From Polynucleobacter sp. AP-Reno-20A-A9 (lineage in GTDB: Bacteria > Pseudomonadota > Gammaproteobacteria > Burkholderiales > Burkholderiaceae), in assembly GCF_018882085.1 (NCBI RefSeq), contig NZ_JACVPB010000008.1, positions 1 to 64,000 on the forward strand: 64,000 bases of DNA, read 5' to 3'. Below are positions 59,556 through 63,921 of the stretch, one piece after another (the stretch's first letter is position 1; each line of letters begins with the position of its first letter). The translations under genes and the position numbers were made by a program. The notes below the pieces were generated by a model. It was not told where the DNA came from. It did not search any database and was given only the letters and a program-made list of their open reading frames with translations.

Positions 59556-59644
59556 GCCCGAGTGGTGAAATCGGTAGACACAGCAGATTTAAAATCTGCC
59601 GACTCAAAAAAGTCGTGCCGGTTCGATTCCGGCCTCGGGCACCA
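59556..59644 (+). tRNA. tRNA-Leu (TAA)
   Basis: Acceptor GCCCGAG pairs with CTCGGGC. The D-arm AGTGGTGAAATCGGTAGACAC is of class II type, the anticodon loop contains TAA, there is a long variable arm (CGACT/AGTCG stem) as required for leucine tRNA, the T-arm is GCCGG/TTCGATT/CCGGC, and CCA is encoded at 59642-59644. An integrase gene starts 91 bases after its 3' end in the same direction. Confidence 0.97.
59612..59644 (+). other. Probable attachment site (attL) at the tRNA-Leu 3' end
   Basis: Tyrosine integrases beside a tRNA gene usually use its 3' half as the attachment core and restore the tRNA on integration. Here the integrase reads away from the tRNA, as expected for the attL side. The second copy (attR) is not in the window, so the exact core length is unknown. 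The call rests on context. Confidence 0.5.
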
Positions 59645-59701
59645 AGTTTGATAGCACCACCCTTGCAGCATAATGCTTGGCGGTTACCTCAGAGTTTTCT
59701 A

Positions 59702-59735: not shown

Positions 59736-61061
59736 GTGCTTATTCTCCAAACGCAACAATTCACCGTGAAGACTAAATACCTAGTAAATAACAACGGAAC
59801 ACTCATGTTCCAGCGGCGCATCCCTCTGGGGCTGCGTAAGTTCTTTCAGGATAAGCAACATATCCGGATCAAGCTGACGGGCAAGCAGAGTTCTATGGTT
59901 GCTGAGGTTATGCGCCACGCTAGGGATACGGATGCAATGTTCAATGACCTGCGCAGTAAGTCTGGTATTGATCGCACTGAGGCCGAGGCCGAGGCTATGC
60001 TTGCTTACTACGGGCTGCGGCCCGGTAGCGGTAACGAAAAAGCAAGACCGCTAAACGGCTACGATGAGTACCCACAGCTAATAGACTTCAATGAGTATCT
60101 AACCTATCGAAAAGATAGGGGCGCGTTAACGGATGCGGATGAGTTAGCTAGGACGCTTCTTACTAAGCCAATGCCATTGATGCTGTCGAGGTGTTTAGAT
60201 GTTTACTTTGCCAATCACGCCAAGGGTACCAAGGCTAAATTTAGATCTGATACCCAAAAGCATTTCAAGCATATTTTTGATGTTTGTGGTGATGTTGGGG
60301 TGGTTAATCTCACTCGAGCGGATGCGAAGAAGTACATAACTGCACGTTGCGCCAAAGTTTCGACTAACTCGGTTTCCAGAGAGATTAGTACGATTAGGGC
60401 CGTCTTGAATGTGGTTATTCGAGAGTTGGAGCTTCGGATTGACAATCCATTCTTATCGTTAGTAATTCCTGATCTCGGAAAAGATGCAAAGGTTAGGGAG
60501 CCATTCACAAATGATGAGGTCAAGAAAATCATTGCCGCCTGCTTAGATAGTCCAAATGATCCCAAGGTAATTCTGCTTTTGTGCACTTTAACTGGTGCAA
60601 GACTCAGTGAGATTGCGGGCCTTCGGAGGCAAGATGTTGCTCTTGACGGGGACATACCGCATATCGACCTAATTGAATACAACGAGCGGACACTAAAAAC
60701 AAAAAATAGTAAACGAGCCGTCCCTTTAATGGCGCTGGCGATTGGAGTGTTGAGTGCCCATTTGGCTAGCCACTCTGATGATATGGTTTTTCCGCGCTAT
60801 AACGACGGCACTGAAGTAAATGGGACTAACGCCTCATCGACGATTGTTGGGTTTATTAAGCGCCTAGGCATTAAAGATAAGACCCTTCACAATGCACGAC
60901 ACACGATGCGCGATTTACTAAGGCATGCAGATATTCCCCCTCATATTATTGATGCAATTGGTGGATGGGGCAGCAATAGTGTGGGCGAGTCATATGGTCG
61001 AGGGTACTCATTGAAACAAAAATTAGATGCCTTGAATGCTGCCTTGGCACCAGTTTTGTAA
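59736..61061 (+). CDS. int: Tyrosine recombinase (phage-type integrase)
   Basis: A 441-aa site-specific recombinase. A long N-terminal arm/core-binding part (residues 1-260) is followed by the catalytic domain: Arg in LTGARLSEIAGL near residue 288, the HNARHTMRDLL box near 385, GGWG near 408 and the nucleophile Tyr420 in GESYGRGY. The start is GTG at 59736 with AGAGG seven bases upstream. It should integrate and excise the element at the adjacent tRNA-Leu. Confidence 0.94.
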   Translation: MLILQTQQFTVKTKYLVNNNGTLMFQRRIPLGLRKFFQDKQHIRIKLTGKQSSMVAEVMRHARDTDAMFNDLRSKSGIDRTEAEAEAMLAYYGLRPGSGNEKARPLNGYDEYPQLIDFNEYLTYRKDRGALTDADELARTLLTKPMPLMLSRCLDVYFANHAKGTKAKFRSDTQKHFKHIFDVCGDVGVVNLTRADAKKYITARCAKVSTNSVSREISTIRAVLNVVIRELELRIDNPFLSLVIPDLGKDAKVREPFTNDEVKKIIAACLDSPNDPKVILLLCTLTGARLSEIAGLRRQDVALDGDIPHIDLIEYNERTLKTKNSKRAVPLMALAIGVLSAHLASHSDDMVFPRYNDGTEVNGTNASSTIVGFIKRLGIKDKTLHNARHTMRDLLRHADIPPHIIDAIGGWGSNSVGESYGRGYSLKQKLDALNAALAPVL

Positions 61062-61184
61062 ATGAAGCTCATCGGCTATTTTTTGCTGCTATGTGGAGCT
61101 CTAGTTATTCAAGATTCGGGTGCTTTTTTCACTGGACTTACATTCTTATTTGTAGGGTTCGGCTTAATTATTTTTCAAAGCTAG
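61062..61184 (+). CDS. 40-aa two-helix membrane protein
   Basis: An ATG immediately after the integrase stop opens a 40-codon frame, MKLIGYFLLLCGALVIQDSG then AFFTGLTFLFVGFGLIIFQS. It has two hydrophobic stretches split by a short polar turn, a hairpin topology. It would be translated by coupling to the integrase. Small membrane proteins of this kind in mobile elements can be regulators, holins or toxins; nothing decides among these. Real expression is not proven. Confidence 0.5.
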   Translation: MKLIGYFLLLCGALVIQDSGAFFTGLTFLFVGFGLIIFQS

Positions 61185-61596
61185 GGCTAGATTTCAATTA
61201 ATTTGCGTATTAGTAAGGTTGAAGAATTTTTTTGTGCCTAATTGTTCATTTTGTAGGTCGAATTCGCAAAAAAAGCGCATTAACATACGTAGGATGGTTA
61301 TGTCGGTAGGTTGGGCCGACTAAAAATAAGTCTCCAACTGAAAGCAGTCTAAAACGAGTAGTAAGGCGGGGCTCCTAAAAATAATGCTGGCTATAGGTCG
61401 TGAGGTCTAGCATTAAGCCCAAGGAAAAGCCGTGTTAGGTCGAGTGGAATCGAAGTAGGCCAAAGCATAGCGTAATGCCGTGATCTTGAAAGATACATAG
61501 TGAGTAGTAGGACAGGCTGCTCACCACGAAACTAGCAATTACAAAAAACATCCACATCCGCTTCACGACTTCAATTATTGATTGAAGGATGTACTG
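61185..61596 (+). ncRNA. Structured noncoding RNA candidate upstream of the primase gene
   Basis: 412 bases without a reading frame on either strand, purine-rich between about 61300 and 61530, with several helices visible by eye. GTCGG/CCGAC pairs at 61302-61306 and 61316-61320, and its loop GTTGG (61310-61314) can pair with CCAAC at 61334-61338 as a pseudoknot. A two-part stem joins GGGCT/AGCCC (61369-61373, 61416-61420) with AATGCT/AGCATT (61383-61388, 61409-61414). GCAT/ATGC pairs at 61465-61478, and GTGAGTAG pairs with CTGCTCAC at 61500-61524. It could be an independent small RNA or the leader of the primase mRNA. I cannot match it to a known RNA family. Confidence 0.5.
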
Positions 61597-63528
61597 ATGA
61601 CACAAACTGTCCAAAAGGTTGAGCTTTGCCTTGACAAAATTCCAGCAACACTTAAAGAATTGCCATGCTGGAGGCCATTTAAACTAACCCCGCCCGCTAA
61701 AGTAGGCGATAAGCCCGGCAAGGTGCCCTTAAACGCACATACCCTCAGACCAAGCAATAACACTCGTAATACCAAAGACTGCACATCCTTTGAATTAGCT
61801 AAAGCATCACTCCTTAATGAACTTAAGCGAAGTCCAGAGCAGCGCCAATTTCACGGCATCGGAATGAGCCTTACGGGGGCTAACGATTTATTAGTGGTTG
61901 ATCTGGATAAGGTGATTTTGGAGGATGGGTCGATTAAACCCCATGCTAAAGAAATATTGGAGACCATTCCCGGATTTGTGGAGCGCAGTATCAGTGGTAC
62001 TGGGTTTCATATCTTCACTAAGAGCGCTGATTGGGAGAGCGGCAATCAATCTAATCATGAGCTTGGTGTTGAAATCTTTCGGGAAGGTAGATATATCGCC
62101 ATTACTGGCGATGAGGACAGATCTTTTAGCAAACCTATTCCGAGTGTTTCCGTATCCGCCGAAATACTAAAGCGGTATCTTCGTCCCAATCCTAAGCAGT
62201 CCGATTTTGACACGTATAAACCGGCCGATCCAGCATGGACTATTGAGCGAATTGAGTCGGAGTTGCTGAGCTTCTTTCCAAGTGAGTTGGACTACGGTAC
62301 ATGGTTGGAAATTGGGATGGCTTTACATCACCAAACCAATGGTTCAGCGGAGGGTTATGAATGTTTTGATAGGTTGAGTTCGCGTGGCACCAATTACCCG
62401 GCGGGCAATGAAAAAACTACTCACGACAAATGGTGTTCGTTTGGAAAGAGTTCAGGTAAGGATGTAAAGACAGTAGGCACTTTAATTCATTTGCGGCAAA
62501 TGTTTGAACAGCAAAGACTTTATCAACGTAGTACGACAGAGCCATTACTTTCTAAAATTGGGGATGCTAGAAAACAAATTAAGAAGATTGATTGGCTTGT
62601 TGAGGGCATGATCAAGCAGCAGTCCTTGGTGATGTTCGGTGGAATGCCTTCTGGCGGTAAGACCTACTTGGCGGTTGAGTTAATGCTGAGTGTTGCCTCT
62701 GGAAAACCTTTTTTGGGTCAGCATACCGTCAAGCAGGGCGACGCTGTATTTATCGCATGTGAAGGTAGGGATAGCGTTTTAAGAAGAGTGGGCGCATGGA
62801 ATCACCTTAAAAATGGCGGCATAGATGTTGATGCGGCATATATCTCAAGCAGGGAAATTGTTGTTACTGCGCCGGAAAAATCTGATACTAGTATTGAGCA
62901 GTATGTTCGAGCAATGGAAGCTGCTGGAATATATCCCAGAGTGTTTTTTATCGACACCATGAATTATTCGCTTGGCTCCGCCAAAGAGAATGATGCCAAT
63001 GATATGACCGAGTACTTTCTCAGAATTGCTAATGGATTAATTGCAAGGTTTGGTTGCACTGCTGTGTTGCTGCACCACACCAGTAAAGATGGTGCAGACA
63101 TTCGTGGCTCATCTACTATCCGCGGCGCCTTAGATTCTTTATTTTTAGTTAGTCGTGATTCAGCGGGGATATTCGCTGTGAAAAATGACAAACATAAAGA
63201 TCGAGACAAGTTAGAGCCGTTTTATTTGGAGGGTCGACAAATTGAGTTTGAGCTCCCAGATGGCTCCATGGAATCCAATATCGCCCTTTATCCGACAGAG
63301 AAGAAGGTCACTGCGTCAGGGTCGATTTACCAACAAAAGGCTCTTGAATTGCTGGAAAGGGAGGTTGATATTGGAGGCGCCATGATTAAAAAGGATCTGT
63401 TGGCACTGATTGATTACCGAACCAACAATGCTGCTCGGGACATTTTTACGCCACTAGAGGAGGGTGGGTTTATTGAAACCAATAAGACCCAAGTAACCCT
63501 TCTAAAAACAAGCGACTTCTACGTTTGA
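61597..63528 (+). CDS. Primase-polymerase / RepA-type helicase fusion
   Basis: A 643-aa replication protein. The N-terminal 190 residues look like an archaeo-eukaryotic-type primase-polymerase: metal pair D102/D104 (VVDLDKV), SISGTGFH with His138, EIF, GRYIAITGDE. A PriCT-2-like linker follows (residues 225-305, YGTWLEIGMALHHQTNG, THDKWCSFG). The rest is a RecA-fold ATPase with Walker A GGMPSGGKTY (Lys355) and Walker B VFFIDTMN, as in RepA/AAA_25, and a C-terminal winged-helix-like end. It probably primes and unwinds the element's own origin. ATG at 61597 with AAGGA seven bases upstream is preferred to TTG at 61582. Confidence 0.85.
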   Translation: MTQTVQKVELCLDKIPATLKELPCWRPFKLTPPAKVGDKPGKVPLNAHTLRPSNNTRNTKDCTSFELAKASLLNELKRSPEQRQFHGIGMSLTGANDLLVVDLDKVILEDGSIKPHAKEILETIPGFVERSISGTGFHIFTKSADWESGNQSNHELGVEIFREGRYIAITGDEDRSFSKPIPSVSVSAEILKRYLRPNPKQSDFDTYKPADPAWTIERIESELLSFFPSELDYGTWLEIGMALHHQTNGSAEGYECFDRLSSRGTNYPAGNEKTTHDKWCSFGKSSGKDVKTVGTLIHLRQMFEQQRLYQRSTTEPLLSKIGDARKQIKKIDWLVEGMIKQQSLVMFGGMPSGGKTYLAVELMLSVASGKPFLGQHTVKQGDAVFIACEGRDSVLRRVGAWNHLKNGGIDVDAAYISSREIVVTAPEKSDTSIEQYVRAMEAAGIYPRVFFIDTMNYSLGSAKENDANDMTEYFLRIANGLIARFGCTAVLLHHTSKDGADIRGSSTIRGALDSLFLVSRDSAGIFAVKNDKHKDRDKLEPFYLEGRQIEFELPDGSMESNIALYPTEKKVTASGSIYQQKALELLEREVDIGGAMIKKDLLALIDYRTNNAARDIFTPLEEGGFIETNKTQVTLLKTSDFYV

Positions 63529-63661: not shown

Positions 63662-63672
63662 AAGGAATGAAC

Positions 63673-63921
63673 ATGCAACATAACAATCCCATTATTGAAT
63701 TAACTTTGGAAAAAACAACGCAGCTACGGCAAATATGGATTTCACATGGGCAAGAATTGCGCCCTGAGGACTTTACCTTTGGTAAGGTCAAACTCAGTAG
63801 ACCCCAAGCCAAGCTCACCAAGAATCAGATATACCGAATGATGATGACCTTGGCTGAGACTGGGTATGACGCGATCCCAGAGTGGATGCTGGAGATAACA
63901 GATCCGCAGGAGGCCAAATGA
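63673..63921 (+). CDS. Small hypothetical protein of the integrated element
   Basis: An 82-aa soluble protein of unknown family, mixed charge with a central helix-turn-helix-like segment (KLTKNQIYRMMMTLAETGYDAIPEWML). ATG at 63667 directly follows AAGGA and is too close for initiation; ATG at 63673 has the proper six-base spacing, so I use it. The stop overlaps the next start by one codon shift (ATGA), implying an operon with the gene running off the window. Confidence 0.6.
   Translation: MQHNNPIIELTLEKTTQLRQIWISHGQELRPEDFTFGKVKLSRPQAKLTKNQIYRMMMTLAETGYDAIPEWMLEITDPQEAK

Follow-up and report, generated by a model that had tools for sequence, protein, structure and literature searches.

A non-coding gap between the integrase and primase-helicase genes of a small integrated element can be read, with a probability of about 0.5, as the 5' untranslated leader of a replication operon, which would represent an undescribed family of structured RNAs and control primase expression in cis. 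The 64,000 nucleotides analysed here (the window) are part of contig C42 of a 2.18 Mb genome, and the putative leader RNA occupies positions 61294 to 61596 of the plus strand. The 5' limit is approximate and was set from the promoter spacing in two related elements (G594 and G438), and 61596 is the last base ahead of the primase start. A double change in helix P1, a core identity above that of the flanks, and the position of the leader before the primase were counted for a leader acting in cis. Counted against it were the promoter, terminator, and 3'-leader signals, which are weak or missing in the window.

To our knowledge, few small integrated elements that encode a primase, P4 among them, have a known mode of silencing. 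Here, a structured RNA would stay constant at the head of a replication operon while the recombinase and the primase are swapped around it; if true, this would make the leader a portable control part made of RNA. Among the four carriers is a named strain, Polynucleobacter parvulilacunae Ross1-W9 (G050).

The integrated element and its non-coding gap

The genes of the element are ordered as tRNA-Leu(UAA), tyrosine integrase, a 40-aa frame, the gap, primase-helicase, sp1, sp2, and sp3. The tRNA-Leu gene (59556 to 59644, plus strand; ARAGORN and Rfam) is the integration site. An attL-like 15-bp repeat, GGCCTCGGGCACCAA (59631 to 59645), repeats the tRNA end exactly and would serve as an attachment site; its exact second copy at C42:68180-68194 gives an element size of approximately 8.55 kb. 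The integrase (59736 to 61061, plus strand) matched Pfam Phage_integrase at 4.3e-14, and the primase-helicase (61597 to 63528, plus strand) matched AAA_25 and PriCT_2 (Pfam 1.3e-28 and 2e-14) and gave PHROG primase matches. Immediately after the integrase stop codon begins a very hydrophobic 40-aa frame (MKLIGYFLLLCG...; 61062 to 61184), which may encode a small membrane peptide.

Downstream of the primase, sp1 (84 aa) covers 63667 to 63921 and the Cys-rich sp2 (97 aa) starts at 63918, runs through 64000, and ends outside the window at C42:64208, both on the plus strand; sp3 follows sp2, also outside the window. No Pfam family above the cut-off and no PHROG match was found for sp1, sp2, or sp3. 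Among the proteins compared across the four genomes, sp2 (97-100 aa) is the best conserved, with 70-79% amino acid identity; sp1 and sp3 are more variable, and sp1 of the window is 29-38% identical to its counterparts in the other three genomes. The sp2 gene and the leader share one contig in the window, G050, and G594, and lie on separate contigs in G438. The searches of public collections returned no close protein relative of the primase in genome contigs, of sp2 in plasmids, phages, and IMG/VR, or of the integrase in IMG/VR or phages; the plasmid search with the integrase gave one distant relative.

Homologues of sp2 and sp3 were each present in 7 of 200 genomes (L098 5168-6187 and relatives), where they are markers of small elements whose recombinase and primase can be exchanged. 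A second integrated element in the genome of the window (L142; G000 contig C39, 118000-130000) encodes an sp2 homologue (45%) together with recombinase-like and AlpA-like frames, both recognized by eye, and has no match to the covariance model R2 described below. In G050, a MerR-like regulator and a frame resembling a metal-transporting P-type ATPase, both judged by eye, lie 3' of sp3 (L100 10517-13194) and are possibly cargo or flank.

A preliminary description of this DNA took the gap as non-coding and, from its density of pairing, as a folded RNA. The first claim was borne out, as there is no convincing frame from integrase to primase, and no plus-strand frame of at least 20 aa occurs between 61324 and 61581. 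The second failed: the minimum free energy (MFE) of 61262-61560 was -73.7 and averaged -69.93 in shuffles (z -0.80), and 44 of 200 shuffles folded equally well or better. The opposite strand of the same interval gave a z of +0.17, and the 242-nt leader from 61299 to 61540 gave -0.75. The helices named in that description can all be drawn, but the relatives support the 5' H-type pseudoknot only. The two-part stem at 61369-61420 and the 8-bp hairpin at 61500-61524 (plus strand) belong to the MFE drawing and have no aligned counterpart in any relative in the R2 alignment; 8 bp is also the length of the longest simple stem in the gap, which 43 of 500 shuffles reach. A 7-bp hairpin, CUUCAAU/AUUGAAG (61569 to 61587, plus strand), overlaps part of the presumed primase Shine-Dalgarno and is equally without comparative support. 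The earlier weighting of the evidence did not hold: in the window, the listed 3' helices do not exceed chance, and the only conserved part is the pseudoknot that had been called "possible".

The 5' core and its relatives

The pseudoknot had been placed at 61302-61338. A scan for H-type pseudoknots with a 5-bp and a 6-bp stem located it at one site in the gap, in two registers, with its start at 61302. Pseudoknots of this size, which was chosen after seeing the site, occur in 13 of 2000 dinucleotide shuffles. P1 is formed by 61302-61306 and 61316-61320 (plus strand, as are all parts of the core) and consists, in all four elements, of five Watson-Crick pairs that close a loop of 9 nt, at the 5' end of the leader; a further hairpin of these dimensions occurs elsewhere in each leader region. 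The P1 strands are GUCGG/CCGAC in the window, GUUGG/CCAAC in G050, and UCUGG/CCAGA in both G594 and G438, and C61304-G61318 of the window is replaced by U-A in G050. The loop sequence also differs between elements (GGUUGG versus AGUUCG and AGGUCG).

P2, the second stem of the pseudoknot, joins 61309-61314 within the P1 loop to 61334-61339. Compared across the four elements, it has six pairs in the window and G050, five in G594, and four of five in G438, owing to a G-G mismatch, and its changes are one-sided only. The A-rich linker L3 across P1, UAAAAAUAAGUCU (61321 to 61333), is identical to that of G050 at 10 of 13 positions in the aligned rows. Hairpin P3 (ACUG AAAG CAGU; 61337 to 61348) overlaps the 3' strand of P2 in all four elements, with 4, 3, 5, and 5 pairs. 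Because the 3' strand of P2 doubles as the 5' strand of P3, the two helices are mutually exclusive.

The first relative came from a DNA search with 61190-61600 against 398 genomes of the family. Besides the window itself, the match in G050 (55 nt at 84%, E 8e-10) was the only one below 1e-3, and 132 of the 398 genomes had some match at E ≤ 1. The G050 leader lies 3' of an integrase that is 43-44% identical to that of the window in amino acids, and 5' of a D5-type primase that has no BLASTP match to the window primase at E 1e-3. The window and G050 cores are identical at 46 of 55 positions, compared with 55 and 61% in the flanking 100-nt stretches (forced global alignment) and 61% in the integrase DNA. 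Nine positions differ, two of them among the 22 paired bases, and these two form a single compensating change, the C-G to U-A replacement in P1. When nine changes were placed at random, all 11 pairs remained intact in 2.9% of the trials, and intact pairs plus a double change were obtained in 0.8%.

A covariance model of the 5' core (R1) gave strong matches in the window and G050 only, both among 186 genomes of the genus (8 genomes at E ≤ 0.1) and among 399 genomes of the order (6 at E ≤ 0.1). Since R1 missed two members found later, G594 and G438, the model is insensitive and its silence proves little. The G594 leader was found with the G050 leader as a DNA query in the 186 genus genomes, six of which had matches at E ≤ 0.01; the two leaders are 82% identical over 207 of 253 nt. 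The primase directly 3' of the G594 leader is 75% identical to that of G050, and the leader sits 3' of a serine recombinase (PHROG integrase 6e-69), in a fragmented assembly of 760 contigs (87% complete, 7% contaminated).

A second model, R2, was built from the G050 and G594 leaders and searched in 69 chosen genomes, which are not a random sample. It detected G438 at 99 bits (E 6e-31), and 8 of the 69 genomes had matches at E ≤ 0.1. The G438 leader lies 3' of a different tyrosine recombinase and is followed by a gene of which 68 codons can be read, whose residues have no BLASTP match to the other primases, and then by frames resembling an IS3-type transposase (by eye; L294 3046-4184). The contig stops approximately 1.4 kb past the leader, and sp1, sp2, and sp3 of this genome are at the start of another contig; we infer that they and the leader belong to one element.

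The leader of approximately 260 nt can be aligned end to end in G050, G594, and G438, and the window has only the first 60 nt or so in common with them. The 3' helices P4 to P10 are present in G050 and G594 and partly in G438, where gaps were moved by hand. R2 scores the window at 21.5 bits, essentially through the 5' core. As its 3' leader is unalignable, the family membership of the window rests on the 5' core and the position. The recombinases beside the RNA comprise one tyrosine type found twice, another tyrosine type, and a serine type, and in three of the four elements (window, G050, and G594) the leader directly precedes a primase gene. Neither a particular recombinase nor a particular primase type is a fixed companion of the RNA.

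The remaining matches were weak or were rejected. The next-best DNA match (G261, E 0.003) shares AATAAGTCTCCAA..GTCTAAAA but stands ahead of an Lrp-like gene (by eye), has a 3-bp P1, and scores 18.0 bits with R1; it was taken as chance. The best extra R1 match (G423) is antisense within a frame, another (G135) lies within a frame, and around a match on contig C88 of G408 no element was recognized by eye. G408 also carries sp2 and a primase-sized frame on a contig that begins about 250 nt before the frame, with no convincing R1 or R2 match. Other R1 matches were in G563, G588, G401, and G453 and, in the order search, in G644, G810, G606, and G752. The R2 matches in G156 and G579 have other gene contexts and broken pairs, and those in G176 (E 0.04) and G464 (E 0.09) are weak. 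The DNA search with the G050 leader also gave short matches of 20-30 nt in G415, G467, and G573 (E 0.002-0.003).

Integrase relatives were present in 19 of 151 genus genomes, and the DNA downstream of the four next closest (G455, G156, G403, and G418) contains no core. G405, G349, and G415 contain sister elements that encode an sp3 homologue and a different recombinase and, by eye, have an AlpA-like frame replacing the gap; all three lack both the core and an R2 match. The sp2 homologues of G314, G149, and G492 are more distant, and these genomes have no R2 match either. The core pattern gave eight matches in genome contigs, of which P. parvulilacunae alone was accepted. In IMG/VR (scans with 0, 3, 5, and at least 79 matches), no such pseudoknot occurs among the matches listed, which by eye are due to chance. 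The single match to a pattern of the 3' leader was ruled out by the model (5.3 bits), and phages and plasmids, searched at the DNA level, yielded no match above chance.

Compensating changes along the leader

The structured RNA proposed in the preliminary description is supported by its relatives, with compensating changes along the leader in G050, G594, and G438; the window itself is a divergent member. In a two-row MAFFT alignment analysed with RNAalifold, 10 of 52 pairs carry double changes. The three leaders were then compared in a MAFFT alignment not fitted to structure (A8), on which 52 named pairs in ten helices were scored. Double changes that keep the pairing affect 10 of these pairs, in six of the ten helices, and some of them lead to G-U pairs; the shuffled mean was 3.3, and none of 500 shuffles reached the observed number. 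The covariation score was 0.282 versus 0.151 in shuffles (0 of 500 reaching it), and further pair types numbered 16 versus 11.7 (4 of 500). In addition, 90.4% of the cells are paired, a proportion that fell to 28-43% once the partners were slid by one to three columns, although this control is biased in favour of the named structure, which was derived from the same sequences.

The consensus computed by RNAalifold itself from the three rows has 57 pairs, 14 of them with double changes. It retains P1, P5, P8, P9, and the CGGAU/AUCCG helix; other pairings take the place of P4, P6, P7, and P10, and a pseudoknotted helix such as P2 is beyond what it can represent. The CGGAU/AUCCG helix is invariant and hence uninformative for covariation. 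On A8, the G438 row leaves P6, P7, and P10 incompletely paired; with a gap moved by hand, P6 and P7 become full stems with different pairs (GCUGU/ACAGC and GAGCAU/GUGCUC), which is our reading and not that of the alignment. In the four-row MAFFT alignment of the core (A9), no measure exceeded the shuffles (68 to 382 of 500 reached the observed values); there, P1 of G594 and G438 is shifted by one column, and only 60% of the P1 cells pair. The MFE z of the G050 leader is -0.64, so thermodynamic stability is no marker of this RNA even where covariation is. Judged from these compensating changes, the leader in G050, G594, and G438 is a structured RNA.

Proposed mode of action and known systems

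Upstream of the leader, a 14-bp DNA motif, TTTGYGYATTAGTA (61202 to 61215, plus strand), is conserved between recombinase and leader in all four elements and confined to their loci in the 2.0 Mb compared; it is a candidate promoter or operator. In G050, three loose TTTGC..ATTA repeats, iteron-like by eye, lie upstream of the leader (L053 3578-3711), and the last alone matches the conserved 14-mer. G594 has a promoter-like site, TCGACA-18-TATAAT (11 of 12 positions), ending 14 nt before P1, and G438 has a 9/12 site at the same distance; none was found near P1 in the window or G050, and in each of the four regions promoter-like sites are about as numerous as in shuffled sequence. Terminator-like sites are absent from the window region. 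G050 has three of them, compared with 0.4 in shuffles, two of which overlap on the sense strand; G594 has one on the sense strand, the P10 hairpin, compared with 0.6; and the only one in G438 is antisense. The sense-strand hairpins of G050 and G594 would fit a control of elongation.

For the cis-acting leader that we favour, transcription would start just before P1, a position carried over to the window from its relatives, of which G594 alone has a near-consensus promoter; the H-type pseudoknot would consequently fold first. The leader may then act on its own transcript, either through elongation or through access to the primase start. Primase expression would presumably be kept low while the element is integrated and allowed upon mobilisation, and the likely trigger is a protein encoded by the element, for which sp2 is a candidate, or a switch between P2 and P3. 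That a promoter-proximal leader was apparently kept while the replication gene was exchanged fits a cis control of the operon. As the leader is common to elements with non-matching primases, such control does not read the coding sequence. Replication control, one of the roles proposed earlier, is the most likely, by position only. The proposed P4-like immunity is unsupported in the one feature compared, as no conserved complementary stretches were found in the flanks of the core in the window and G050.

A bolder version, which we consider speculative and unlikely, makes the leader a bistable RNA and a control cassette travelling between elements. The P2-or-P3 state, perhaps set by sp2, would decide the expression of the operon whatever the recombinase or primase. 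The strand shared by P2 and P3 in all four elements permits one of the two states at a time.

Beside the cis-acting leader, a small RNA acting in trans in the manner of P4 CI is conceivable but would be a doubtful choice. The 5' core would be processed from the leader and pair with targets, stopping operon transcription or blocking incoming relatives. The location is similar, where the replication operon begins in a small integrated element that has a primase, the 5' core is the only part common to all four elements, and the loop variation between them could reflect immunity specificity. However, complements of the core of at least 8 nt, sought from the integrase stop to the primase start in the window and G050, are no longer than 8 nt, with none common to both, and the terminator-like sites lacking in the window region also speak against it.

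The pseudoknot, next to the promoter, might instead work by antitermination in cis, as put RNA does, modifying RNA polymerase to read through the structured leader into the operon. This is rather improbable, despite the 14 nt that separate the pseudoknot from the -10-like hexamer in G594 and from the weaker site in G438, the single leader with differing downstream genes, and the sense-strand terminator-like hairpins in G050 and G594. The hairpins consist of 5 pairs and are followed by poor T runs, the window and G438 have no such hairpin on the sense strand, and a literature search on put RNA returned nothing.

We give little credence to a DNA element, either an origin of replication or a region bound by protein, in which the paired bases would matter as DNA, duplex or single-stranded. 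A primase gene would be expected to have origin functions nearby, and the conserved 14-bp motif lies beside the leader; nevertheless, the double changes that preserve pairing in six of the ten helices, with G-U pairs among the outcomes, fit an RNA, and the non-matching primases of the window and G050 make a common primase-bound origin unlikely. Finally, that the window gap is an unstructured leader with mere relics of the RNA, as its folding energy (z -0.80) and unalignable 3' part might suggest, is very improbable, since a decaying relic would hardly keep a core 46/55 identical to that of G050 with its P1 change compensated.

The term "undescribed" withstood the Rfam check. None of the leaders of the window, G050, G594, and G438 has a match in Rfam 15. 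At the gathering score, the window gave two tRNAs only and the loci L285, L294, and L053 gave nothing; with weaker matches allowed, the leaders themselves gave either nothing or one match well under that score, at E 2.3 to 4.7. ToxI repeats and the pistol ribozyme are H-type pseudoknot RNAs, and they resemble the core in the 5-bp P1, the loop pairing downstream, and the A-rich linker; CGUUAAAUA after P1 in G050 is presumably as in the pistol ribozyme. In contrast to both, there is no Rfam match here and, unlike ToxI, no tandem repeat, and the neighbouring genes scanned in the window have no toxin-family match. The put RNA of HK022 is a folded RNA near the early-operon promoter that acts in antitermination. 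It is similar in its location near an operon promoter and differs from the H-type pseudoknot and the leader of about 260 nt described here. The int-alpA RNA motif lies 3' of the integrase gene in a mobile element, a position shared by our RNA; however, the latter has no Rfam match, no alpA-like frame follows it in the window, and the sister elements with AlpA-like frames (by eye) are without it.

In the portions available of the literature on Polynucleobacter islands, antisense-immunity satellites, int-alpA, tycheposons, put RNA, and the structured leaders of mobile elements, no description of this RNA was found. Integrase and the primase gene alpha mark the two ends of P4-like elements (PMC8628076), whereas the two genes are adjacent here. 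The CI RNA of P4 acts by pairing with the surrounding seqA and seqC (PMC4825925); no complementary sites like these were found around the core in the window and G050, and there is no Rfam match. Like P4 CI, the RNA described here is a putative non-coding leader heading the primase-helicase operon of a small integrated element. Regulatory leader RNAs of integrated elements are a known kind, and this particular RNA appears to be new.
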